A stretch of 64,000 nt of DNA. Source: Malaciobacter mytili LMG 24559 (GTDB lineage: Bacteria > Campylobacterota > Campylobacteria > Campylobacterales > Arcobacteraceae). Positions 19,502-30,381 of this stretch are shown here, piece by piece (within the stretch, counting starts at the first letter, position 1; each line of letters opens with the position of its first letter). The position numbers and the translations under genes were made by a program. The DNA lies in NCBI RefSeq assembly GCF_003346775.1, contig NZ_CP031219.1, forward strand, positions 620,001-684,000, written 5' to 3'. A model generated the notes under the pieces. It worked only from the letters and a program-made list of their open reading frames with translations. It had not been told where the DNA came from and ran no database searches.

Positions 19502-20461
19502 ATGAATTTTATTAAAAGAAAAACTTGGCAAATATCTGAAAATGAAGTAACTTCAAAAGAGTTATTTGATAATAGAAGAACTTTTTTAAAACTAGGAGCT
19601 GCAAGTTTAGTAGCAAGTGGTTCGATTATTGAAGCACTTGCAAAAGATCAACTTCCTGTACAAAATTTAAAATTTATAAAAGATAATAATCCAAATAATT
19701 TAGTTTTAAATACTTATGAACAAATTACTTCTCATAATAATTTCTATGAATTTACAACAAACCAAAGTAGGGTGAAAGATTTAGCTTATACTTTAAATAC
19801 AAATAATTGGAAAATAGAAGTTGATGGCTTAATTGAAAAACCTGTTACTTTGGATTTTGATGATTTAGTAAAAAAGTTTGCTTTAGAAGAGAGAATTTAT
19901 AGATTTAGATGTGTTGAAGGCTGGTCTATGGTTGTACCTTGGATAGGTTTTGAACTTTCAAAGCTAATTAAATACTTAAAACCTTTATCAAGTGCAAAAT
20001 ATATAAGGTTTGAAACTTTATATGATGATGATATGTTCCCTGACCAAGCAAGAACAGTTTTTGGTGCAATTGATTATCCTTATGTTGAAGGACTTAGAAT
20101 AGATGAAGCTATGAATGAACTTGTAATTATGGCTGTGGGGTTATATGGCTCATCAATGCCAAAACAAAATGGTGCTCCTATTAGATTAATAGTTCCTTGG
20201 AAATATGGTTTTAAATCTATTAAGTCAATAGCAAAAATCTCTTTTACAAATGAACAACCTTTAAATACTTGGCAAAAAGAAAATCCAAAAGAGTATGGTT
20301 TTTATGCAAATGTAAATCCAAAAGTTGATCATCCTCGATGGTCTCAAGCAAAAGAGAGAGTTTTAGGCAAGTTTTTAAAACAAAATACTTTAATGTTTAA
20401 TGGATATGAAAAAGAAGTTGCATATTTATATAAAGGGATGGATTTAAGAAAGGAGTTTTAA
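19502..20461 (+). CDS. msrP: Protein-methionine-sulfoxide reductase catalytic subunit MsrP
   Basis: Periplasmic molybdenum enzyme that repairs oxidised methionines in envelope proteins, formerly YedY. A Tat signal has RRTFLK at residues 25-30 followed by a hydrophobic stretch ending near ALA at 47. The molybdenum ligand is C137 in [15 protein letters not shown], and the cofactor-binding segment [14 protein letters not shown] is near the end. Length of 319 residues is normal. The stop overlaps the ATG of msrQ by one base. Confidence 0.95.
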
Positions 20462-21012
20462 TGAAAAGTATTATTTTTATTCTTTTTTCTTTACCTTTAT
20501 TTATTACATTATATGAACTATTTATTTTAGAAAATATAAATGACCCAATAAAATATATTTATACTGTAAGTGGAGCAACAGCAACTGTGATTTTATTTTT
20601 TACTATAAGTATATCAATGATAAAAAAAAGAGTAAATTTAATCAAATATAGAAAAATGATAGGTTTATTTGGCTTTTTTTACGCTTTTTTACATTTACTA
20701 AACTTTATAGTTTTAGATGCTGAAATTAATTTTGCTTTTATTTTAAAAGAAAGTTTTGAAAAGCCTTTTATTTATCTTGGAATGATTGCTTTTTTTATAC
20801 TTTTATTTATGGCATTTACTTCTACCCAACAGCTATTTAAAAAGTATAATAAATATCATAAATTTATATATCTTGCTTTAATACTAATAACAATACATTT
20901 TGTAATGGCTCAAAAATCACTTTCTATAATACAATTTGGATATATTGTTATTATTTTATTTCTTGGCTATTGTAAACTACTTCAACAAATTATTAAAAAA
21001 AATAAAATATAA
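20461..21012 (+). CDS. msrQ: MsrQ haem-binding membrane subunit
   Basis: Inner-membrane b-type haem protein of 183 residues that passes electrons from the quinone pool to MsrP. About six hydrophobic helices are visible, with the conserved His-containing segments FYAFLHLLNF, YHKFIYLALILITIHFVMA and a positively charged KYRKMIGLFGF loop, matching the YedZ family. Directly coupled to msrP. It is the last gene before the phage-derived island; a 10-bp dyad follows. Confidence 0.9.
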   Translation: MKSIIFILFSLPLFITLYELFILENINDPIKYIYTVSGATATVILFFTISISMIKKRVNLIKYRKMIGLFGFFYAFLHLLNFIVLDAEINFAFILKESFEKPFIYLGMIAFFILLFMAFTSTQQLFKKYNKYHKFIYLALILITIHFVMAQKSLSIIQFGYIVIILFLGYCKLLQQIIKKNKI

Positions 21013-21014
21013 CT

Positions 21015-21045
21015 CTTCTTATCTTTATTAAATTAAGATAAGAAG
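21015..21045. terminator. Dyad between msrQ and the phage-type repressor
   Basis: Perfect 10-bp arms at 21015-21024 and 21036-21045, loop of 11. It lies between convergent genes and may act as a bidirectional terminator, although T-runs are weak. It also marks the left border of the accessory island. Confidence 0.5.
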
Positions 21046-21069
21046 TGTATGTATAATTGGCTTTATTAT

Positions 21070-21735
21070 TTAGAATTTTTTAGCTTCTTTTTGAATGTGT
21101 AATAATCTTGAAGCTTTTAAAAACTCTGGTTTATCAATTTCAATATTTTCATATCTCTCATTTAGTGGCTTTAAGTAAATCGATCCATCAGGGTTTTTTT
21201 TATAAACTTTTATTCCATTTATATCTTGATTATCTGAGCCAAAATCAAAGCTATAATGTACTACTTCACCATCTTCTAATCCATTATTTTTTAATACTTC
21301 AAAAAAGCAGATATCACCCTCATAGATATAATCTTCCATACTATCTCCAAAAGCTCTAATTGCATAAACCATATCTGCATCACCAGAATAAACAGTCGTT
21401 TCATCTGTATCATCATACCAATCTTTAAAGTAACTTTCACAAGGAACTGAACACCCACTATTCCCAACAATAGGAACTATTTTGGTGTATAGTTGAGCAT
21501 TATGGTCTATTATTTCTTTTTTATCTGTAAGTAGTATTTTGGGGTCAACTTTTAAAAATATTGCAGCTTTAATAATATATTCATTTGGAAATTCATGTAT
21601 TCCACTAAAGTATCTACTAAATCTAGTTCTTTCTGATCCTTCAATATCTTCTTTTCCTAGAAGAAATCTAATTAAATCAATTTGTTTTAAATTTTTTTCA
21701 TCAAGTATATATTTTATTTTTTCACCTATTTTCAT
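21070..21735 (-). CDS. CI/LexA-type repressor with S24 peptidase domain
   Basis: 221-residue phage-type transcriptional repressor. An N-terminal helix-turn-helix (about residues 1-70) is followed by a linker with VGNSGCS at 90-96, the expected place of self-cleavage, and an S24 peptidase domain. Catalytic Ser132 lies in GDSM and the catalytic Lys176 in NGIKVYKK, so RecA-stimulated self-cleavage is plausible. It is transcribed away from the island genes, with three operator-like repeats between it and the first rightward gene. This is the arrangement of a lysogeny switch. Confidence 0.88.
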   Translation of the reverse strand: MKIGEKIKYILDEKNLKQIDLIRFLLGKEDIEGSERTRFSRYFSGIHEFPNEYIIKAAIFLKVDPKILLTDKKEIIDHNAQLYTKIVPIVGNSGCSVPCESYFKDWYDDTDETTVYSGDADMVYAIRAFGDSMEDYIYEGDICFFEVLKNNGLEDGEVVHYSFDFGSDNQDINGIKVYKKNPDGSIYLKPLNERYENIEIDKPEFLKASRLLHIQKEAKKF

Positions 21736-21753
21736 ATTTTTACCTATATTTTT

Positions 21754-21840
21754 GTTACTAATATTGTAACATTTATTTGTTACGAATTATGTAATATTTT
21801 AAGAAATTATTAAATTTTTTAATGTTACGATTATCGAAAC
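21754..21840. promoter_or_regulatory. Three operator-like repeats of the phage repressor
   Basis: Three 17-bp sites share GTTAC-N7-GTAAC: 21754-21770 (perfect), 21779-21795 (GTAAT in the right half) and 21824-21840 (GAAAC in the right half). They lie between the divergent repressor and the rightward genes. The first covers the leftward promoter area; the third lies just before a rightward TATAGC at 21850-21855. This matches a CI-type operator region. Confidence 0.7.
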
Positions 21841-21875
21841 AAAAATATTTATAGCTTAATTATAAGGAGTAGAAA

Positions 21876-21998
21876 ATGAAAATAATAATTTTTGGAGATT
21901 TGCATGATTTTAAAAATATCAAAGATAAATGCAATAAACCAAATATAAAAAAGTTAGAAGTTAAAAATAAAGAAAATAAAAACCCCTTTGGTAAATAA
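21876..21998 (+). CDS. 40-residue lysine-rich peptide, first rightward gene of the island
   Basis: Short open frame of 40 codons with a strong AAGGAG ribosome binding site (21864-21869) 6 bases before the ATG. The peptide begins MKIIIFGDLHDF and is then rich in Lys and Asn, with no helix-turn-helix. It occupies the place where a Cro-type gene would sit in a phage switch, but the sequence gives no sign of a DNA-binding fold. Function unknown; it may be a regulatory or leader peptide. Confidence 0.55.
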   Translation: MKIIIFGDLHDFKNIKDKCNKPNIKKLEVKNKENKNPFGK

Positions 21999-22288
21999 CT
22001 TCATAAAGAGGTATTCGTAGCTTTCTATTGAGGCTTATTTTTTCCAAGTTGCTAATTTTTATCTCCTTTAGCAACAGTCTCTAAATATTTTTGCGATTTT
22101 TTGATAAGAGAGTGTCCTCGACCAAAATTTCACTCTCTTATTTTACACGAATTTAGAATAAGTGCCTAAGGATTATATCTAAAGGCTTATAGAACTTTCA
22201 ATTAAGCCAACTCCTATGTTCTTTATTCCTCCTACAAATCGGTAGGGGTTGGTTGGTTTAATTGAAGCGATTAATGTAGGAGTTAATC
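21999..22288 (+). promoter_or_regulatory. Structured leader with several hairpins and an anti-ribosome-binding-site
   Basis: 290 bases without a convincing gene. Visible structures: a 7-bp hairpin (22048-22054 with 22069-22075), an 11-bp hairpin (22104-22114 with 22131-22141) and a 15-bp stem with one G-T pair (22197-22211 with 22252-22266). Inside the last stem lie AACTCCTA (22209-22216) and CTCCTAC (22229-22235). Both are complementary to the TAGGAGTT ribosome binding site at 22277-22284 of the next gene, so alternative pairings could hide or expose it. Confidence 0.55.
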
Positions 22289-22645
22289 ATGAGTAAGAAT
22301 GAAATACCAAATATTTCACAATTTGAGTTAAAAAATCTAGCAAAAGATTTTATAGCAGAAGATACTAGGTTAATAGCATTGAGTAAGTTAATTAAAACTA
22401 AAAAATTACCTAAACGAAGAAAGGAAGTAGCAGAGGCTTTACTTTTATCTTTAGAACCTCAAACTTCATTAATGTTAGAAGTATGGTGTAGTAAACAAGA
22501 GAGATTTAAACACTTAAAAAGATGTACAATAACAGGAAGATTTAATGAGCTTGAAAAAGCAAAAATAATTAAAGTATTTAAAACTGCTCCTTGTAAAGTT
22601 ACAAGAAATACTGCAAAGTATTATACTGTGTCGGAAATTTTGTGA
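22289..22645 (+). CDS. Island protein with winged-helix-like C-terminus, function unknown
   Basis: 118-residue basic protein. The C-terminal half (CTITGRFNELEKAKIIKVFK, then residues ending in KYYTVSE) has the helix-turn-helix-wing pattern seen in small phage replication or regulatory proteins. The N-terminal half is helical with a KTKKLPKRRKE basic patch. Translation start is ATG at 22289 with TAGGAG 6 bases upstream, within the structured leader. The stop overlaps the ATG of the replication-like gene. I do not recognise a named family. Confidence 0.65.
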   Translation: MSKNEIPNISQFELKNLAKDFIAEDTRLIALSKLIKTKKLPKRRKEVAEALLLSLEPQTSLMLEVWCSKQERFKHLKRCTITGRFNELEKAKIIKVFKTAPCKVTRNTAKYYTVSEIL

Positions 22646-23472
22646 TGAAAGCATATTTATTTATAAATCAAAAAGCATTTATATCAATTGCAAACTCAAA
22701 AGGTAAAAAAGTAGATTATATAGATGGTGCTTTATTTGATTGGATAAATACATTTACTCATTCAGAAAAAGCACTTAAAAAACTAATAGATAATAAGCTT
22801 TTTATTTGGGTTAATTATACAGCTATTAGAGAAGATAATCCTATGGCAAATATTACTTCAAATGATGTTGTAGGTAGAAGATTAAATAAGCTTGTTGAAC
22901 TTGGAATATTAGAAAAATATTTATCTAAAGAAGATGGAAATAAAGTATTTTTTCATATAACTCAATTTGCTTATGACTACCTACTTGAAAGTAGGGAGCT
23001 ACCGACTCAAAAGTCGGAACCCCTCCCGACTCAAAAGTCGGATAATAGTAAGTTAAATAACAGTAAGTTAGATAGTAAAGAAAAAAATACTAAAAAAAGA
23101 AATTTGGAACATACAGAAAATCAAAATAAAATTAGCATAAATGAGATAATTGAGTTTTACAAAAAAAATATCTCTTCTAAAAATGCAAAAGTAAAAGAGC
23201 AATTGAGTTATAACGCAATTGTTTTACATCAAGAGCATATTGATAAGATTATACAAGGATTAAGAAACTATGCACTAATAAAGCCTAAAGATGAGCAGTA
23301 TATTTGCAATCTTCAAAGTTTTGTAAGAGAAAATATTTATCTTGATTACCAGATGAGAGAACAGAAAAAAATAAAATCAACTGGTCCTAGTGTTGAAAAT
23401 ACAAAGGCTATGATTGAGCAGTTATACTCAACTAGTCCAAGTGGTGTAATTGATTGTGAGGTAATATCATGA
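22645..23472 (+). CDS. Phage replication initiator-like protein
   Basis: 275-residue protein (ATG at 22645; a GTG 3 bases earlier is less likely). Residues 1-115 look like a winged-helix domain of the phage replisome-organiser kind (DVVGRRLNKLVELGILEK). A low-complexity linker follows with LPTQKSEP and LPTQKSDN, then SKLNNSKLD. Such linkers are common in phage initiators of the DnaD or lambda O type. The C-terminal part (about 165-250) is helical. The DNA of the linker contains repeats that could be an origin. Overlaps both neighbours by 1-4 bases, so it is part of one operon. Confidence 0.65.
   Translation: MKAYLFINQKAFISIANSKGKKVDYIDGALFDWINTFTHSEKALKKLIDNKLFIWVNYTAIREDNPMANITSNDVVGRRLNKLVELGILEKYLSKEDGNKVFFHITQFAYDYLLESRELPTQKSEPLPTQKSDNSKLNNSKLDSKEKNTKKRNLEHTENQNKISINEIIEFYKKNISSKNAKVKEQLSYNAIVLHQEHIDKIIQGLRNYALIKPKDEQYICNLQSFVRENIYLDYQMREQKKIKSTGPSVENTKAMIEQLYSTSPSGVIDCEVIS
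23002..23075. repeat. Iteron-like repeats inside the replication gene, possible origin
   Basis: Two identical 16-base repeats with internal dyads (CCGAC-N6-GTCGG) at 23002-23017 and 23026-23041, 24 bases apart. An AT-rich direct repeat based on AGTAAGTTA follows at about 23047-23072. Lambda-type phages carry their origin as iterons plus an AT-rich stretch within the initiator gene, and this has the same layout. Confidence 0.5.
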
Positions 23473-24080
23473 GTGCAGTAATACAACCAAAAGATTTTTC
23501 TAACTTTATTGTCGAAACTTTTAATATCAAAAGTGGGTCTATGCTTACAGTTATGAATATAAGCAAAAAGATTGAGAGTTTATCTGACCCTTTAGAGTTT
23601 ATTCAATATGCAGAGCAAACTGTATCTTGTCAGAAATTACAATTCTTAACAGGGTATCAAAAGTTTTTAAAAGTTTTCAATGATTATATTAAATCAAAAT
23701 TACAACTTAACCCTAAAGCAGAAGGACAGATTGCAGAGTTTTCAGATAAATTAACTAAGAGATTAACAGATATAGCAATACAAATACATTATCTTTTACA
23801 AGTAAATGGTCATCCTTTTAGTTGTTATATTAGAACTTTTGAAAAAAATTTAAATAATAAGCAAATTGAAGTATGTAAAGACATCGGAACTTGGGAAGAA
23901 GTTTATAAAATGGCATTAAATAGTTCATATAATTTGCAAAGAGATATTTTAGATATTTGTTATAAAAAAGCAATGTTAAAAATAAATGCAAATATTGAAA
24001 TAGAAAATAAAAATAAAGGTGTAATAAAAATTTGTAATTTAATTTCTAAAGAAATTTTAGTTTTTAAAAATAATGTGTAA
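23469..24080 (+). CDS. Island protein downstream of the replication gene, function unknown
   Basis: 203-residue, largely helical soluble protein that starts with a 4-base overlap on the replication-like gene. There is no Walker A motif, so it is not a DnaC-type loader ATPase. Position after an initiator is where phages often keep a helicase loader or accessory replication protein, but nothing in the sequence proves this. Cysteines are scattered (SCQKLQ, YIRTFEK region) without a metal-binding pattern. No named family recognised. Confidence 0.6.
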   Translation: MSAVIQPKDFSNFIVETFNIKSGSMLTVMNISKKIESLSDPLEFIQYAEQTVSCQKLQFLTGYQKFLKVFNDYIKSKLQLNPKAEGQIAEFSDKLTKRLTDIAIQIHYLLQVNGHPFSCYIRTFEKNLNNKQIEVCKDIGTWEEVYKMALNSSYNLQRDILDICYKKAMLKINANIEIENKNKGVIKICNLISKEILVFKNNV

Positions 24081-24147
24081 GTATTACTATAAAGCTAAAT
24101 AAAAATGAAATTAAATAGTTGAAATTAAAATTTTAAAGGTAAAATAA

Positions 24148-24336
24148 ATGAGTATAAATGAAAAAAATAGAAAAGCAATTACTGCACAAGTAAGACCATC
24201 ATTGGAAATAGAAACGATTATTACATTAGAGGCATTACAAAAGAGTATGCCTCTTGGTAAAACAATAGAAGAACTTCTTAAAGAATCTGCAACTTTTATG
24301 AAGAAAAAAGAAGAATTAATGAACTTTAAGGAGTAA
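24148..24336 (+). CDS. Small ribbon-helix-helix-like protein
   Basis: 62-residue protein with an AAGGT ribosome binding site. A basic N-terminus leads into ITAQVRPSLE, a possible beta-strand, followed by helices TIITLEALQKS and TIEELLKES. This is the order of an Arc/MetJ-type ribbon-helix-helix domain, as in small phage regulators or antitoxins. No toxin gene is adjacent. It is the last gene before the gene-free stretch that probably marks a deletion. Confidence 0.5.
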   Translation: MSINEKNRKAITAQVRPSLEIETIITLEALQKSMPLGKTIEELLKESATFMKKKEELMNFKE

Positions 24337-24382
24337 TTCTTTTTAACAATAACTCATTGCTATAATATAAAAAGGTATTTTT

Positions 24383-24420
24383 GGCTTGTGAGAAATGTTT
24401 TTAAAAACTTCACACAAGTC
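24383..24420 (+). ncRNA. Hairpin RNA candidate downstream of a TATAAT
   Basis: Arms 24383-24394 and 24409-24420 pair with one mismatch, and the interior GTTTTT/AAAAAC extends the stem. A TATAAT lies 17 bases upstream. No clear terminator follows, so the 3' end is unknown. Confidence 0.3.
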
Positions 24421-24590
24421 TCAATTGCATTATGTATTAAACTATCATCTCTATTTATATCTAAAAAATTACTAACTTCTTTTTACTGTTTCTAATTTAT
24501 TTTTATCTGGATAAACAACCTATTTTTACCATCATCTTGCAATAAATAGAATTTATAATATGTTTATCAAGCTTTATTTTACAAAAAATA

Positions 24591-24636
24591 GCACCACTTT
24601 TTACTCCCTTACTTTATTTAAAAAAACATATAAAAT
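24591..24636 (+). repeat. Repeated late-module motif, copy 1
   Basis: Bases 24591-24612 match 26472-26493 in 20 of 22 positions (GCACC-N2-TTTTT then ACTCCCTTAC). An A-run and a TAAAAT follow in both copies, extending the similarity to about 46 bases. It ends 30 bases before the first tail-fibre gene. A shared promoter or activator site for the late modules is possible. Confidence 0.5.
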
Positions 24637-24665
24637 TGCAGTCTAATTTAAATTAAGGAGAAAAT

Positions 24666-25640
24666 ATGCCTACAAATGAAATTGATGTTGTAGAAAATTT
24701 AGTTGATAGTGTAAGATTATTACTATCAAGTGATACAAGTTTAGAAAGTTTAAAAGAGATTGAACTTTGTGTAAAACAAAATAGAGTTGATGTTGAAAGT
24801 ATTGAAGTTTCAAAAATCATTGGATTAGAAGAACTTCTTGCTTCAAAATTAAATATTGCAGATATTGTTGATGATTTATTATCTACATTAGCTAATGTGC
24901 CACTTAGTGCAAATCAAGGTAGAGTTTTAAATGAAAAATTAGTAATTTTAAATGAAGCTATTGAAGCTATTAAAGTTGTTTTAGCAAGTGATGATACAAC
25001 TTTAGATGAGTTACAAGAAATTGTAAATTTTATTAAACAAAATAAATCTGAACTTCAAAATTTAGATTTAAGTAATATTGCTGAGACATTAGATTTAAAA
25101 CATTTTACTGCTGAATTAAAGGCAAAATTAGAATCTTTACCTCTTAAAGAAGAGTTAAAAACTTTTGCAGTGCCAACTGGAATGATTCTTATTAGTCCTT
25201 CTTCTATTATTCCTAGTGGGTTTTTAGAATGTAATGGTACAGAATTATCAAGAACACAATATGCTGAATTATTTGCTGTAATTGGTACTACATATGGAGT
25301 AGGGGATGATATTACAACATTTAACTTACCAGATTTAAGAGGCGAATTTATTAGAGGTTTTGATAATGGAAGAGGAATTGATAGTGGAAGAGTTATTGGT
25401 AGTTGGCAAAAAGCTTCAGCACAAATAGTAGACCCCAGTTTAAATGCTATTTATGCGACAGGAATTACTAATGCAGATAATAATACTAGTGAAATTAATG
25501 ATAGAGCAGGTTTAGATACAGTTAGTGCAAGTGACTATAATATAGTAGCTGGATATAGTAATGCTATTGGGGTAGGAAATTTTAATTTAGGTGGAACTAG
25601 ACCAAGAAATATAGCAATGATATATTGTATTAAATATTAA
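24666..25640 (+). CDS. Phage tail fibre protein with collar domain
   Basis: 324-residue receptor-binding-type protein. The N-terminal half holds two copies of a 45-residue repeat (SSDTSLESLKEIELCVKQNR, and ASDDTTLDELQEIVNFIKQN near residue 105) that also occurs in the next gene. The phage tail collar domain covers about 170-240: GMILISPSSIIPSGFLECNG, then FNLPDLRGEFIRGFDNGRG. The end region to YCIKY resembles the tip of many phage fibres. The ribosome binding site AAGGAG is strong. No tail tube or baseplate genes are nearby. Confidence 0.88.
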   Translation: MPTNEIDVVENLVDSVRLLLSSDTSLESLKEIELCVKQNRVDVESIEVSKIIGLEELLASKLNIADIVDDLLSTLANVPLSANQGRVLNEKLVILNEAIEAIKVVLASDDTTLDELQEIVNFIKQNKSELQNLDLSNIAETLDLKHFTAELKAKLESLPLKEELKTFAVPTGMILISPSSIIPSGFLECNGTELSRTQYAELFAVIGTTYGVGDDITTFNLPDLRGEFIRGFDNGRGIDSGRVIGSWQKASAQIVDPSLNAIYATGITNADNNTSEINDRAGLDTVSASDYNIVAGYSNAIGVGNFNLGGTRPRNIAMIYCIKY

Positions 25641-25657
25641 AAGTTAAAGGAAAAAAT

Positions 25658-26242
25658 ATGGATATTGTAAAAACAGATTTAGAAAACTTAATTGAAAGTT
25701 TTACTAATATATTAAAAACAAATGATACTTCATTAGATCAATTACAAGAAATTATTGATTTTATTAAAAAAAATAGAGAAGATTTAGAAAACTTATCTAT
25801 TGAAAATATTATAGGATTGCAAGATACTTTAAATTCAAAAGTTGATAATACTAAGGTATTAACACCAGTACCTGAAAATGCATTATTTACAGATACAAAT
25901 ACTTGGAGACCTATTAGTGATAGTGTTTCAAGTGTTGATTCAACAGTTAGTGCTAGTTCAAAAGCTGTAAAAATTGCTTATGATAAAGCTATGGAAGCTA
26001 TAAGAAAAGCTGCAACGGTTCCCTCTTCTATTGGTGGAGTTGGTACTTATGCTTTTTTAGCATATTATGGTTCAAAGACTTTTTCACCAGGATCTACATG
26101 GGTAGGTTCAAAATTAAGATATGCTGGAGTTTCTGAATATGGTTCTGTAAAGTTAGAAAATCAAAGTTTAAGTGGAACTTGGAGATGTATGGGGTATAGC
26201 ACTTCAAATACGCCAGCAACATTATTTTTAAGAATTGCATAA
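25658..26242 (+). CDS. Second tail fibre-like protein with shared N-terminal repeat
   Basis: 194-residue protein that begins with the same repeat (KTNDTSLDQLQEIIDFIKKN, then NIIGLQDTLNSK) as the preceding gene. Residues about 75-110 hold a STVSASSKAVKIAYDKA linker, typical of phage fibres that precede a knob domain. The C-terminal part is rich in Gly, Ser and Trp (GSTWVGSKLRYAG, GTWRCMGY) like phage gp53-type or pyocin knobs. It starts 17 bases after the first fibre gene. The shared repeat suggests that both attach to the same partner. Confidence 0.75.
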   Translation: MDIVKTDLENLIESFTNILKTNDTSLDQLQEIIDFIKKNREDLENLSIENIIGLQDTLNSKVDNTKVLTPVPENALFTDTNTWRPISDSVSSVDSTVSASSKAVKIAYDKAMEAIRKAATVPSSIGGVGTYAFLAYYGSKTFSPGSTWVGSKLRYAGVSEYGSVKLENQSLSGTWRCMGYSTSNTPATLFLRIA

Positions 26243-26254
26243 AAAAGGAAAAAA

Positions 26255-26446
26255 ATGAAAATAGAAATTAAAAACCCAAAATATTCAAATAAAGAAAAAA
26301 CACAAGTTGATGTTGAATTAAATCATCAAGAATTTGGATGGATCCCATATACTTTTCATTATGAAACAGAAGATGAAAGTTTTGATGGAGTAATTAGAGA
26401 ATATCTAAAGAATGAAAATATAGAAATAGAATTTTACTCTAAATAG
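26255..26446 (+). CDS. Small protein after the tail fibre genes
   Basis: 63-residue acidic protein starting 12 bases after the second fibre gene with an AAGGA ribosome binding site. The sequence PKYSNKEKTQVDVELNHQEF followed by GWIPYTFHYE resembles small proteins often found directly behind phage fibre genes, where a chaperone is usual. The family has no proven function, so tail fibre assembly is only a guess. Confidence 0.6.
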   Translation: MKIEIKNPKYSNKEKTQVDVELNHQEFGWIPYTFHYETEDESFDGVIREYLKNENIEIEFYSK

Positions 26447-26458
26447 TTATAAATTTAA

Positions 26459-26483
26459 ACAGGTGCAGAAAGCACCTGTTTTT
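26459..26483 (+). terminator. Rho-independent terminator of the tail fibre module
   Basis: Perfect 8-bp GC-containing stem (26459-26466 with 26472-26479), 5-base loop, followed by a T-run at 26479-26483. It ends the tail fibre transcript just before the lysis genes. Confidence 0.8.
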
Positions 26484-26517
26484 ACTCCCTTACAAAATCT
26501 AAAAAAATCCCTAAAAT
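26472..26517 (+). repeat. Repeated late-module motif, copy 2
   Basis: Second copy of the motif at 24591, beginning in the right arm of the terminator and running to about 26517. It precedes the lysis gene set by 70 bases, just as copy 1 precedes the fibre genes. Copy 1 lacks the left arm of the hairpin. Confidence 0.5.
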
Positions 26518-26588
26518 AAACAAAATATTTTATAAGTAATATATATTAAAGAACAAATAACAAATAAAATTTAAGAATTGGAAGAATA

Positions 26589-26969
26589 ATGAAAGTAATT
26601 TTATATGCCAATCCAAAATATTGGGCTTTATCTAATAAAGAAAAAAAAGAGATTTGTAATGGTTGTGGTGCAAAAGGTGCTTGGTACAATTTTTTAATAC
26701 CAGGTGGAATATTTAAAGAAGCTTGTAATATCCATGATTTTGATTATCTAATTGGTAAAACAGAAGAAGATAAAAGAAAAGCAGATAGAAGATTTATTCA
26801 AAATTTAAAAAGAATAGTTGATAAAACTGAAAATAGAGCTTTAAAAAAATATAGATTAGTTAAAGCAAAAGGTTTTTATAAAGCAGTAAAAGATTTTGGA
26901 GATGAAGCTTTTTGGGCAAATAAAATAGTTGATGAGAAAAATTCACAAGGAAAGGAAGTAGAAATATGA
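26589..26969 (+). CDS. Phospholipase A2-like phage protein
   Basis: 126-residue protein with the PLA2-type active-site pattern: a glycine-rich loop (CGAKGAWYNFLIPGG) followed by ACNIHDFDY, in which His-Asp is the catalytic pair and Tyr is conserved, then EEDKRKADRRF with the second acidic position. Similar proteins accompany holin and endolysin genes in other phages (from memory). There is no signal peptide, so it would rely on the holin or on lysis to reach the envelope. First gene of the lysis set. Confidence 0.72.
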   Translation: MKVILYANPKYWALSNKEKKEICNGCGAKGAWYNFLIPGGIFKEACNIHDFDYLIGKTEEDKRKADRRFIQNLKRIVDKTENRALKKYRLVKAKGFYKAVKDFGDEAFWANKIVDEKNSQGKEVEI

Positions 26970-27193
26970 AAAAGTTAGTTTTATTAATTATTGCTCTTGT
27001 AGCAGTATTTAGTGGTTGTGTTGCAACAAATGAGAATGGAGAAAAAGGTTTAAAAGGAGTTTATACAGGACACATCTATACAAAACAAGATTTGAATAGA
27101 TATAAAGAGATTTATAATGATGGTAAACATATTGTTTTGCAAGTAAAAGAAGAAGTAAATCTTGTGAAGCAAAGCTTAAAAGAAACAGAATAA
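26966..27193 (+). CDS. Small lipoprotein in the lysis set
   Basis: 75-residue protein with a signal peptide ending in the lipobox FSGC (Cys18). The mature part is short and ends in a helical KEEVNLVKQSLKETE stretch. Overlaps the PLA2-like gene by 4 bases. An outer-membrane spanin subunit is a possible role given its place before the holin, but the Pro-rich composition of Rz1 proteins is missing. Function open. Confidence 0.6.
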   Translation: MKKLVLLIIALVAVFSGCVATNENGEKGLKGVYTGHIYTKQDLNRYKEIYNDGKHIVLQVKEEVNLVKQSLKETE

Positions 27194-27216
27194 TAGTTAT
27201 ATGTTGGTGGTAAAAA

Positions 27217-27555
27217 ATGATAGATACAATTTCTCTAATAATAAGTAAACACTTTTTAGTTTTTTTATGGATTACAACATTATCTTTATTAGGTGGATTA
27301 GTGGGGTATATTAGAAAACTAAAAGAGGGTAGATATGAAAGATTTTCAATTACTGAACTTGTAGGAGATTTAGTAATATCATTTTTTATTGGTATTACAA
27401 CTTATTTTATCTGTAAGTCAGCAGGTTTTGATGATTGGTTAATTGCTGGACTAGTTGGGATTACTTCTCATATGGGTACAAGAGGTCTTGTTTTAATAGA
27501 ATCAATGGTTGAAGAGTATGTTAAAAGAATTTTTAAACTTGATAGTAAAAAGTAG
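27217..27555 (+). CDS. Phage holin-like protein
   Basis: 112-residue membrane protein with three hydrophobic segments (about 12-31, 48-66 and 72-87) and a charged C-terminus. GLVGITSHMGTRGLVLIES in the third segment resembles the conserved region of LydA and related holins. It lies directly before the endolysin gene, with GGTGG as ribosome binding site. Holins form the membrane holes that time host lysis. Confidence 0.78.
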   Translation: MIDTISLIISKHFLVFLWITTLSLLGGLVGYIRKLKEGRYERFSITELVGDLVISFFIGITTYFICKSAGFDDWLIAGLVGITSHMGTRGLVLIESMVEEYVKRIFKLDSKK

Positions 27556-27564
27556 GAGAATATA

Positions 27565-27996
27565 ATGCCTAGTTTTGGAAAGACTTCAATACAAAGATTA
27601 GAAACTTGCCATAAAGATTTACAAACAATTTGTAATGAGGTTATTAAGTATTATGATTTTTCAGTTATTGAAGGATATAGAACTTTAGAAATGCAACAAA
27701 AATATTTCAAAGATGGAAAATCAAAACTTGATGGAATAAATCAAAAATCAAAGCATCAATCATTGCCATCACTTGCAGTTGATGTTGCACCATATCCAAT
27801 TGATTTTAAAAATGAACATAAAGCAAAAGCAAGGTTTTATCATCTTGCAGGATATATGTTTATGGCAAGTGAGATTTTATATAAAGAAAAAAAGATTACT
27901 CATAAATTAAGATGGGGTGGAGATTGGGATATTGATAACTATTTTAATGACCAAAGTTTTGATGATTTACCTCATTTTGAATTAGTAAAGGTTTAA
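27565..27996 (+). CDS. M15-family endolysin (L-alanyl-D-glutamate endopeptidase type)
   Basis: 143-residue peptidoglycan peptidase. It carries VIEGYRTLEMQQKYFKDGKS, then KHQSLPSLAVDVAPYP with the zinc-binding His and Asp, and a final DLPHFELV with the third zinc ligand. Size and motifs match phage T5-type endolysins. All active-site residues are present and there is no signal peptide, so export would need the holin next door. A strong AGGAG precedes the ATG. Confidence 0.9.
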   Translation: MPSFGKTSIQRLETCHKDLQTICNEVIKYYDFSVIEGYRTLEMQQKYFKDGKSKLDGINQKSKHQSLPSLAVDVAPYPIDFKNEHKAKARFYHLAGYMFMASEILYKEKKITHKLRWGGDWDIDNYFNDQSFDDLPHFELVKV

Positions 27997-28123
27997 AAGT
28001 AATTTATGAAAATTTGGTATTACTTAACTGATTAATTAAGTAATAGAATATAGATAATAAAAAATAGTGTTAGTATTAACTTTTCATTAACCTTTTGTTG
28101 AAGTTTAGTTAATGGTTAAGTGT

Positions 28124-28129
28124 TATAAT
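28124..28129 (+). promoter_or_regulatory. -10 element of the small RNA candidate
   Basis: Perfect TATAAT in an intergenic region, preceded by dyads built on TTAACC/GGTTAA that could be regulatory sites. Predicted transcription start is about 28136. Confidence 0.5.
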
Positions 28130-28135
28130 TTTCTT

Positions 28136-28268
28136 AGAAATAAGCAAGAATACGGACTTACTTATTTTCCAATAGAAATTAGATAGCGAATTTCAAGTTT
28201 TCCGACAACTAATTTTTTATGTTTCCTTGTGTGTAAAAGGCTTCCTCCCCGGGAAGCCTTTTTTTTTG
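28136..28268 (+). ncRNA. Small RNA candidate at the right border of the phage island
   Basis: About 130 bases from a TATAAT to a strong terminator, with no good reading frame. Visible hairpins: a stem of 9 of 10 pairs at about 28139-28166, a 6-bp stem from GAAATT to AATTTC in 28177-28196, and the terminator. I do not recognise it as 6S, tmRNA, SRP RNA or RNase P. It could be a phage regulatory RNA or a host one. Confidence 0.5.
28235..28267 (+). terminator. Strong rho-independent terminator
   Basis: 11-bp stem rich in GC (28235-28245 with 28252-28262), 6-base loop, and nine consecutive T bases at 28259-28267. The best terminator in the window. Confidence 0.9.
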
Positions 28269-28335: not shown

Positions 28336-30381
28336 ATGCCCTTATCAAATCTAAATAAAGAACAATTAGAAGCTGCAACTTGTGAACCTGGATATAATTT
28401 GATTATTGCAAGTGCAGGGACTGGTAAAACTTCTACTATTGTTGGAAGAATTGCTAATTTAATAAATGGTGGAACAAAACCAGAAGAGATTTTATTATTA
28501 ACTTTTACTAATAAAGCAGCAGCAGAGATGGTACAAAGGGTTGCAAAGTTTTTCGGAAAAGAATTAGCTGCAAAAATAATGGCAGGAACTTTTCACTCAG
28601 TTTCATATAAGCTACTAAAACAACTTGAGATAAATATTACTTTAAAACAACCAAATGAGCTAAAAACTTTATTTAAATCTCTTTATGAAAAAAGAGTTTT
28701 TTATAATAGAGATGATGAAGCAAACCCATATGATGGGGGATATTTATATGATATGTATTCACTTTTTTTAAACTCAAATGATGGAGAAGAGTTTGGAGCT
28801 TGGGTTATTTCTAAAAATCCTGCCCATGAAATATATACTCCAATTTATGAAGATGTAGTTATAGAGTTTGATGAGTTAAAGAAAAAATATGGTTATGTAA
28901 ATTTTGATGATTTACTTGTATTAATGTTAAATACTTTAAAAGAAGAAGAGTTTGATTTTAAAGAAATTTTAGTAGATGAGTATCAAGATACCAATCCACT
29001 TCAAGGAAGATTACTTGATGCTTTTAAACCAAAGTCTCTTTTTTGTGTAGGGGATTATGATCAAAGTATTTATGCTTTTAATGGTTCAGATATAGGTATT
29101 ATTTCAACTTTTTCTAAAAGATATAATAGTGCAAATGTTTATACTTTAAGAAAAAATTATCGTTCTTCTAAACCAATTTTAGATCTAGCTACAAAAGTAA
29201 TAGAATTTAATGAAAGAATTTATGAAAAAAATTTAGAAGTTATGAGAAATGATGTTGATATAAAACCTAAACTTTTAGCTTTCAATGAACTTTTTGGTCA
29301 ATATGAATATATCTCAGAACTTATCTCAAAAAGTAGTACGCCCCATAGTGAAATAGCTATTATTTTTAGAAATAACTCAAGTGCAGATGGTATAGAAGCA
29401 AACTTAAGAGAGTTTGGAATTCCTGCAAAAAGAAAGGGAGGAATGTCTTTTTTTGATGCTTTAGAAGTAAAATTTGTATTAGATATTTTGATGATGCAAT
29501 TATCCCATAATGATATGATGGCTTTTATTCATGTAATTGAGTATGGGAAAGGTATTGGAAAAGCTATTGCAAAAGATATTTTTGATGCATTAATAAAACT
29601 TGGACATGGAAAGCTTTTTGATGGTTTATTCCATCCTGATGATAAGATAAAAAATCCTTATGAATCTAATAAAGTAAAAAATATTCAACTTGGGTTATTT
29701 GATGATTTTATAGAACTTGGTAGCTTATCAAAATTTAAAGAGTGCAATTTTGAAGAGAAGTTTTTATCAAATCCTATTTTAAAGCATCCTAAATTAACAG
29801 TTGAGGGTGCTTTATACTTATATGATTTTTATAATTTATTAAAAGAGTTAAGAAGGGTAAAATCTCCTGCTTCTCAAATAGAACATATTGTTAAAAGTTC
29901 ACTTTTTAATAGAATAAAAGAGTTTTTATCTACAAAAAGAGCAACACAAAAAGATGGAACAATAAATGAGAGTTTAAAAAGTAGTTCTATTACAAAAATC
30001 AATAGGAAAGCTCTTTTATTAAAAACACTTTCAACTCATTATAAAGACCTTTCAAAATTTATAAACTCTATGGTTTTAGGTGGAAGTGAGATGAGTGAAG
30101 GAGAAGGTGTTAATCTTCTTTCTGTTCATGCAAGTAAAGGTTTAGAGTTTAAAGAAGTATATGTAATAGACCTTATGGATGGGCGTTTTCCTAATAGAAA
30201 GCTTATAAGTAAAGGTGGAAGTATAGAAGAAGAGAGACGACTTTTTTATGTTGCAGTTACAAGAGCTAAAGATATTCTTTATCTAAGTTATGCAAAATAT
30301 GATAAAGTTAAAAAGTTAGATTTTATTTATTCACCTTTTCTAAAAGAAGCCGGACTTATAAAAGATGAGAGTTTAGATTAG
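28336..30381 (+). CDS. UvrD/Rep-type ATP-dependent DNA helicase
   Basis: Superfamily 1A 3'-5' helicase of 681 residues. Motif I ASAGTGKTST lies at residues 25-34, motif Ia LLTFTNKAA follows, motif II is VDEYQDTNP near 216, motif III is VGDYDQSIYAFNG, motif IV is LRKNYRS, and motifs V-VI are VNLLSVHASKGLEF and RRLFYVAVTRAK. Shorter than E. coli UvrD, as in other Campylobacterota. This appears to be a chromosomal gene that borders the phage island on the right. Acts in DNA repair or fork restart; which is not decidable here. Confidence 0.9.
   Translation: MPLSNLNKEQLEAATCEPGYNLIIASAGTGKTSTIVGRIANLINGGTKPEEILLLTFTNKAAAEMVQRVAKFFGKELAAKIMAGTFHSVSYKLLKQLEINITLKQPNELKTLFKSLYEKRVFYNRDDEANPYDGGYLYDMYSLFLNSNDGEEFGAWVISKNPAHEIYTPIYEDVVIEFDELKKKYGYVNFDDLLVLMLNTLKEEEFDFKEILVDEYQDTNPLQGRLLDAFKPKSLFCVGDYDQSIYAFNGSDIGIISTFSKRYNSANVYTLRKNYRSSKPILDLATKVIEFNERIYEKNLEVMRNDVDIKPKLLAFNELFGQYEYISELISKSSTPHSEIAIIFRNNSSADGIEANLREFGIPAKRKGGMSFFDALEVKFVLDILMMQLSHNDMMAFIHVIEYGKGIGKAIAKDIFDALIKLGHGKLFDGLFHPDDKIKNPYESNKVKNIQLGLFDDFIELGSLSKFKECNFEEKFLSNPILKHPKLTVEGALYLYDFYNLLKELRRVKSPASQIEHIVKSSLFNRIKEFLSTKRATQKDGTINESLKSSSITKINRKALLLKTLSTHYKDLSKFINSMVLGGSEMSEGEGVNLLSVHASKGLEFKEVYVIDLMDGRFPNRKLISKGGSIEEERRLFYVAVTRAKDILYLSYAKYDKVKKLDFIYSPFLKEAGLIKDESLD

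Follow-up and report, generated by a model that had tools for sequence, protein, structure and literature searches.

Organization of the island between msrQ and uvrD

We analysed a stretch of 64,000 nucleotides from the chromosome of Malaciobacter mytili LMG 24559 (the window), in which a compact island of phage-type genes lies between msrQ and a gene for a UvrD-type helicase (uvrD). The island (21013..28075) is an insertion of approximately 7.06 kb between msrQ and a conserved element with a predicted small RNA (sRNA), and encodes an S24/CI-type repressor, an early operon with a RepO-like replication initiator, a fibre operon (two tail fibres and an assembly chaperone-like protein) and a lysis operon (phospholipase A2 (PLA2)-like protein, small lipoprotein, LydA-type holin and endolysin) (Table 1). 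Based on the list of open reading frames (ORFs), reading of the sequence and family matches, these genes were located where a preliminary description of the stretch had placed them, all with open frames. The gap claimed there was also borne out, since no integrase, terminase, capsid, tube, sheath or tape-measure gene was recognized between msrQ and uvrD. Compared with an intact temperate phage, the island carries repressor, replication, fibre and lysis modules of phage type, but neither an integrase nor a transposase and, apart from the fibres, no terminase, capsid or tail genes in the same interval. Its GC content is similar to that of the flanks.

Table 1. Features of the island and its chromosomal flanks, with positions in the window
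Feature	Position	Strand	Basis
msrQ, left chromosomal flank	20461..21012	+	Ferric_reduct PF01794; msrP-msrQ order kept in relatives
Island	21013..28075	.	Borders inferred by junction comparison with relatives
S24/CI-type repressor, 221 aa	21070..21735	-	PF00717 3e-10, phrog_4 2e-22
40-aa ORF at the head of the divergent direction, possibly not a gene	21876..21998	+	ORF list alone
Early protein, 118 aa	22289..22645	+	phrog_1123 2e-7
RepO-like replication initiator	22642..23472	+	GTG at 22642 or ATG at 22645; phrog_345 'replication initiation O-like' 2e-5
203-aa protein	23469..24080	+	No convincing relative
62-aa ORF	24148..24336	+	No family match
Late-promoter-like repeat copy A, 5′ of fibre operon	24590..24636	+	Repeat search; 79% identity between copies
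Tail fibre 1, 324 aa (repeat stalk, Collar domain, tip)	24666..25640	+	Collar 3e-23
Tail fibre 2, 194 aa	25658..26242	+	Phage_fiber_2 1e-5
Fibre assembly chaperone-like protein, 63 aa	26255..26446	+	phrog_4628 tail fibre assembly 9e-4 (weak); 72% to G054 island copy
Terminator-like hairpin and T run after fibre operon	26460..26483	+	Read in sequence; not listed by consensus terminator scan
Late-promoter-like repeat copy B, 5′ of lysis operon	26471..26517	+	Repeat search; pairs with copy A
PLA2-like protein (NGCG, CxxHDxxY)	26589..26969	+	Pfam PLA2 weak, 9e-4, below cut-off
Small lipoprotein, start overlapping PLA2 stop	26966..27193	+	Lipobox FSGC read in sequence
LydA-type holin	27217..27555	+	PF16083 3e-19; phrog_785
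Endolysin, M15 peptidase type	27565..27996	+	phrog_465 1.5e-33; PF13539 weak, 0.0037
Four-unit 11-bp-period TTAAC-type box, chromosomal, at island right border	28076..28112	+	0 mismatches at two genome places
Predicted chromosomal sRNA with terminator	28136..28266	+	-10 TATAAT 28124-28129, start inferred; conserved in relatives
UvrD-type helicase, right chromosomal flank	28336..30381	+	PF00580, PF13361; near sRNA in relatives

The borders were inferred from the junctions of five relatives (G078, G079, G094, G003 and G010) within a family sample of 104 genomes, in which G numbers denote genomes (G000 being that of the window) and L numbers denote loci or stretches. Most of the extent given in the preliminary description (21015–28268) was confirmed as island, but its last approximately 190 bp (28076–28268) proved to be a chromosomal promoter and predicted sRNA, and the right border was moved to approximately 28075. 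In three relatives of other genera (G094, G003 and G010), msrQ is followed within approximately 300 bp by uvrD, with the conserved element between them and no insert, and in the congeners G078 and G079 the sRNA element lies directly 3′ of msrQ. No island protein was detected in any of five congeners in the stretches fetched around the sRNA (tblastn, E 1e-4). The site is thus unoccupied in relatives, and the complete island was found in one of the 104 family genomes, that of the window.

Late-promoter-like repeats and probable phage origin of both halves

The fibre and lysis operons are each preceded by one copy of a 47-nt repeat, the core of which, TTTTTACTCCCTTACNNNATNTAAAAAAA, is exact in both copies and absent from shuffles. 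Within 3 mismatches, the 29-nt core was found at no other place in the window genome, including a Mu-like prophage described below, and the other 103 family genomes gave two single matches, each with 3 mismatches (backward control, none). The position and pairing of these repeats suggest late promoters under an activator of the island. If so, the late regulon appears to consist of the fibres and lysis genes only, because within this genome the core is confined to the two island copies.

The right half of the island matches the right end of a phage, as it shares the gene order of a 35 kb viral contig (L257), in which a 1536-aa tape-measure-like protein (identified by eye) is followed by a fibre, a chaperone-like protein, a PLA2 (72% identical), a lipoprotein, a holin and an endolysin. 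The core of the 47-nt repeat is absent from L257, so it does not mark this lysis cassette in general. The left half resembles the repressor–RepO region of a contractile-tail prophage in G081 (L073), with 30% identity, and 43% in the C-terminal part of the RepO-like protein. The latter also matched the RepO-like protein of Campylobacter phage DA10 (30% over half, E 0.01).

Scans of viral contigs detected 158 relatives of fibre 1 (80 kept), 122 of fibre 2 (80 kept), 13 of the holin, 17 of the endolysin and two of the PLA2, but none of the RepO-like protein, the repressor or the activator of the ilvD islands described below. Of the 80 loci retained for fibre 2 out of 122, 27 held a chaperone relative together with the fibre 2 relative. 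The fibre stalk was found at 29 loci in genome contigs, one in Arcobacter (a G081 contig) and the rest in Bacteroidota-type genomes, and in 16 phage records, 15 of them Campylobacter phages, with no match covering over 80% of the stalk. Plasmid records included 359 with collar-type matches, none of which covered over 80% of fibre 1. The endolysin matched 1196 of 50,697 phage records, a few of which carry the annotation L-alanyl-D-glutamate peptidase.

The ratio of non-synonymous to synonymous substitution (dN/dS) of the window PLA2 was 0.29 and 0.15 against two phage copies, and that of the endolysin was 0.14 against one copy and undefined against another; these values, like those for the window fibre 1 stalk against G080, G081 and G084 (0.26, 0.26 and 0.12) and the chaperone against G054 (0.14), include constraint in the other lineages and are not specific to the window copy.

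Parallel islands between ilvD and degQ

A DNA search with the window island led to a second virion-less island, located between ilvD and the gene for a degQ-type protease (both identified by eye) in five of the 104 family genomes from three genera (G080, G081, G054, G069 and G084). These islands encode a CI-like repressor (86–97% identical among the five), a 92-aa protein with a match to late transcriptional activators (phrog_836, 2.5e-6), proteins of approximately 102 aa and 134 aa with weak spanin-like (E 0.04) and holin-like (E 0.004) matches, respectively, and an amidase-type endolysin (in G080 and G081 another, chitinase-like). Their fibres, one per island except for two in G080, are relatives of window fibre 1 (67% identity in G080, G081 and G084, 56% in G069 and 42% in G054), and the G054 island also carries the chaperone (72%). 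No integrase and no virion gene besides the fibres were recognized in these islands. The activator was present in five of the 104 family genomes, and in four genomes of an order-wide draw of 398, all among the same five. In 18 of 20 other genomes fetched (the window genome included), ilvD and degQ are adjacent, roughly 110–200 bp apart, and ilvD is missing from the other two stretches. A conserved element lies 5′ of the ilvD-island fibre genes, with six copies in the five genomes (two in G080), and was found nowhere else in six genomes searched. In G080, the extra fibre (498 aa) has its own copy of this element. Between G080 (L042, 10380-12960) and G081 (L043, 8000-8950), the fibre stalk is 99% identical and the receptor-binding tip is different.

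Regulators and lysis genes of the ilvD islands are under purifying selection, with a within-genus dN/dS of 0.03–0.15. For the pairs G080–G081 and G069–G054, respectively, the values were 0.028 and 0.048 for the repressor, 0.073 and 0.096 for the activator, 0.046 and 0.045 for the 102-aa protein, 0.087 and 0.092 for the 134-aa protein, and 0.133 and 0.154 for the endolysin, beside 0.104 and 0.054 for the flanking ilvD and 0.106 and 0.056 for degQ. For G080–G081, the fibre 1 stalk gave 0.060 and the whole fibre 0.609, the latter because the tips differ between the two genomes. Across genera, regulators and lysis genes reached up to 0.26 (134-aa protein), some pairs being saturated with dS undefined. 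Most of the ilvD-island genes had synonymous distances below those of the flanks, which makes exchange between species after insertion likely, so that purely vertical inheritance is not established. Taken together, the recurrence and the dN/dS of these islands indicate that the keeping of this gene combination is recurrent and selected there. Like the window island, they hold a virion-less set of regulator, fibre and lysis genes, but they occupy another site and have other regulators, no replication genes, no PLA2 and other endolysins.

Search for a particle elsewhere in the genome

An apparently complete Mu-like prophage is located on the same chromosome (G000:C1:738576-770363; L070, L071), with transposase, terminase, portal, sheath and tape measure genes, its own fibre and its own endolysin. 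Its portal and terminase genes are on the opposite strand and, besides PLA2 and lipoprotein genes of its own, it carries a gene for a Dam-like methylase (identified by eye). The preliminary description had proposed looking for tail or capsid genes in the rest of the genome; the tail part of this search was run for three families, and all matches in the window genome fell within the Mu-like prophage. Baseplate_J (PF04865) matched in 13 of the 104 family genomes, once in the window genome, within this prophage and 111 kb from the island. PhageMin_Tail (PF10145) matched in three of six genomes, namely in the prophages of G000 (its only match there) and G081 and, weakly, in G080, in which the matching 746-aa protein resembles, in its N-terminal sequence, a membrane sensor rather than a tape measure. 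Phage-tail_3 (PF13550), with six genomes searched, had no match in the window genome. No orphan tail locus was detected with these three tail families and both late elements, a genome-wide search that did not extend to sheath, tube, other tape-measure families, capsid, portal or terminase.

These results bear on two readings that had been proposed for the island. As a phage satellite, it would replicate by its RepO module and be packaged in virions borrowed from a helper, for example the Mu-like prophage of the same chromosome, adding its own fibres and lysis proteins. The presence of a replication initiator and a regulator, and of an apparently complete prophage with a baseplate gene 111 kb away, agrees with this reading, but the island has no integrase and no recognized packaging or capsid-remodelling gene, and the Mu-like prophage does not contain its late-promoter core. 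Furthermore, island fibre 1 is without the N-terminal part of the Mu-like fibre (residues 2–159, phrog_327/1780 group), and a single genome carries the island. The satellite reading, which gained no support, is accordingly improbable.

Under the other reading, the island would belong to a tailocin or gene transfer agent, the tail genes of which are located elsewhere in the genome. A repressor with fibre and lysis genes resembles the accessory part of pyocin-type loci, and the diversity of fibre tips in the ilvD islands is as expected of a killing particle. Tail tube, baseplate and tape measure are absent from the island, however, and the three tail families searched genome-wide pointed to the Mu-like prophage (PF04865 and PF10145), which has its own fibre and endolysin, or to nothing (PF13550). 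In addition, PF04865 is without a match in four of the five genomes with ilvD islands, and, allowing 3 mismatches, the carrier genomes contain no further copies of the late element of either type of island. A split particle of this kind, for which the three tail families searched gave no support, is thus improbable.

The PLA2–lipoprotein pair and the early genes

The assignment of the PLA2-like protein is consistent with the match of a five-sequence profile to the solved bacterial PLA2 1FAZ (8e-8); a fold search with a modest AlphaFold model (three sequences, predicted local distance difference test (pLDDT) 73) gave no significant PDB match. The overlapping PLA2–lipoprotein gene pair is also present in the viral contig (L257:10001-10716), in a phage-like contig of G076 (L051:10138-10781) and in the Mu-like prophage (G000:C1:756798-757447), and lies near an endolysin gene in the window (26589-27193), L257 and L051. 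Among ORFs of at least 40 aa inspected by eye, the lysis operon has no candidate for an inner-membrane spanin, and a lipoprotein is present. No spanin was detected in 91 of 677 phages, according to the part of the survey consulted (PMC6139136). The PLA2–lipoprotein pair is a candidate for the outer-membrane step of spanin-less lysis, and as such might explain how phages without spanins breach this membrane. Vibrio phage 1.097.O counts against a role of PLA2 in lysis, as its PLA2-domain gene has terminase and head genes as neighbours. Among titles and abstract openings of the open-licence literature, none was found that reports PLA2 as a factor in phage lysis.

Of the early proteins, the 118-aa protein had no match in phage records. 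The 203-aa protein had two weak matches besides itself in 298 genomes and none in phage records, and its structure model was unusable (pLDDT 43). Within the RepO-like gene (22977-23042), three tandem palindromic repeats of approximately 20 nt (CTCCCGACTCAAAAGTCGGA type), spaced 22–24 bp, are positioned like origin iterons.

The predicted chromosomal sRNA element

The chromosomal element at 28076-28268 consists of the TTAAC-type box, a TATAAT motif, a stretch of invariant sequence (TTTTATGTTTCCTTGTGT) and a terminator. The predicted sRNA, which had no Rfam match above the cut-off, is conserved in Arcobacteraceae near msrQ or uvrD, with tandem copies in G081 and G082 and a variable terminator. 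A host gene cluster of approximately 7 kb lies between the sRNA element and uvrD in G078, G080 and G081, and the same cluster follows the element in G079 to the end of the fetched stretch; urease genes (named by eye) lie on the other side of the element in G080, G081 and G082. The TTAAC box was found with 0 mismatches at the sRNA promoter (28076-28112) and the degQ promoter (G000:C1:2624644-2624680), and with 3 mismatches at two more places (backward control, 0). In G080, the sRNA box has 2 mismatches, and degQ is followed by genes for an OmpR-type regulator and a kinase. Both types of virion-less island are situated just upstream of one of the two boxes, an arrangement noticed post hoc; the two types are oppositely oriented to the box, which makes it unlikely as a common insertion signal or shared att site.

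Interpretation of the island

We propose that the island is probably a deletion-derived remnant of a temperate tailed phage that keeps a regulated core of fibre and lysis genes. Such a phage would have inserted between msrQ and the sRNA–uvrD unit and then lost the integrase along with all genes for head and tail, most simply by one internal deletion between the replication and fibre genes together with loss of one end. Stress or another signal may lift the S24 repressor, leading to expression of the early operon (118-aa, RepO-like, 203-aa and 62-aa proteins), and a putative island activator would turn on the two matching late promoters, that of the fibre operon and that of the PLA2–lipoprotein–holin–endolysin operon; the cell would then burst and release the fibres. 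Of the three readings offered in the preliminary description, that of a deleted prophage retained for the sake of its fibres and lysis functions has the strongest backing. The phage order of both halves and the empty site in relatives support a deleted prophage, whereas its being kept is not demonstrated for the window copy and is suggested by the selection seen in the five parallel islands of other species.

Several observations weigh against this proposal. Neither flanking direct repeats nor an att site were seen by eye at the island ends, and the 47-nt repeats owe their promoter status to position. Each half had a counterpart of its own (the late order in L257, a region resembling the early half in the G081 prophage), but early and late island genes occurred together in none of 346 loci at E 1e-3, the window's own stretches aside; with no longer version found, the deletion itself is reconstructed. 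Inspection by eye showed an Ala–Gly cleavage site in the ilvD-island repressors but none in that of the window, which makes control by the SOS response doubtful. The ilvD islands, in which the repressor belongs to a different group (28% identity between the G084 and window repressors) and the activator is one not present in the window island, are parallels and not copies. Finally, with the whole island in one genome, selection is inseparable from recent deletion of a neutral remnant.

This last point leads to the alternative of a recent deletion derivative or a decaying, functionless remnant, with frames open only because the event is young. The occurrence in one of 104 genomes is in accord with it, and a young remnant would have open frames too. 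In a survey of 1384 prophages, as far as the part consulted goes, incomplete prophages are enriched in tail fibre, integrase and transposase genes, and lysis genes are preferentially lost (PMC7744054). The island is like these incomplete prophages in having lost virion and packaging genes and kept tail fibres, but differs in its intact lysis operon with a promoter-like element, the lack of an integrase and the retention of a replication gene. Since the whole lysis operon and two matching late promoter-like elements are intact, and parallel islands are under purifying selection, a functionless remnant is rather unlikely.

Ruins, tailocins, transfer agents and sources of single genes are the usual categories for defective prophages. 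None of them quite accommodates a regulon of fibre and lysis genes that has no recognized particle and, in three genera, is under purifying selection at a single chromosomal site. Should such a regulon be functional, either the free fibres do something or a particle type outside the searched families is present. Taken by itself, the window copy would be of modest weight, but it gains from the five parallel islands under selection; phage remnants reduced in this way may still have a function. As a tentative and rather doubtful extension, both island types might represent a class of domesticated phage devices in Campylobacterota, in which the late regulon under repressor control is limited to a lysis operon and receptor-binding fibres. 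On cue, a few cells would burst, and the free fibres might act on neighbours without a particle, for example by blocking the phage receptors of kin cells or by binding rivals. Such a class would have arisen at least twice (msrQ|sRNA and ilvD|degQ), with a conserved stalk and an exchanged tip. No report of a virion-less fibre–lysis island was found among titles and abstract openings of the open-licence literature.

Comparison with known systems

R- and F-type pyocins are under control of the PrtR/PrtN type, in which a repressor and an activator are combined with fibres and lysis genes. The ilvD islands share the combination of repressor and activator with fibres and lysis, but the tail tube, sheath and baseplate genes of the pyocins are absent from the island, and none were detected elsewhere under the same promoter element. 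The phage satellites P4, PICI and PLE are small and have their own regulator and replication initiator but no virion. The window island agrees with them in these features, but has no integrase or recognized hijacking gene, and carries a full lysis operon and fibres. In type 10 secretion of Serratia and Yersinia entomophaga, as described in the part of the source consulted, lysis cassettes are located outside phages, and cell killing frees cargo (PMC10847048). The island resembles this system in having a holin and an endolysin outside an intact phage, with a proposed burst that frees folded, co-expressed cargo. It differs in that the cargo would be fibres, in the presence of PLA2 and lipoprotein genes with no recognized Rz/Rz1 spanin pair, and in being known from its genes alone. 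The island has no recognizable spanin pair, and we do not file it as a member of type 10 secretion; by analogy with that system, programmed lysis may serve here to release the fibres.

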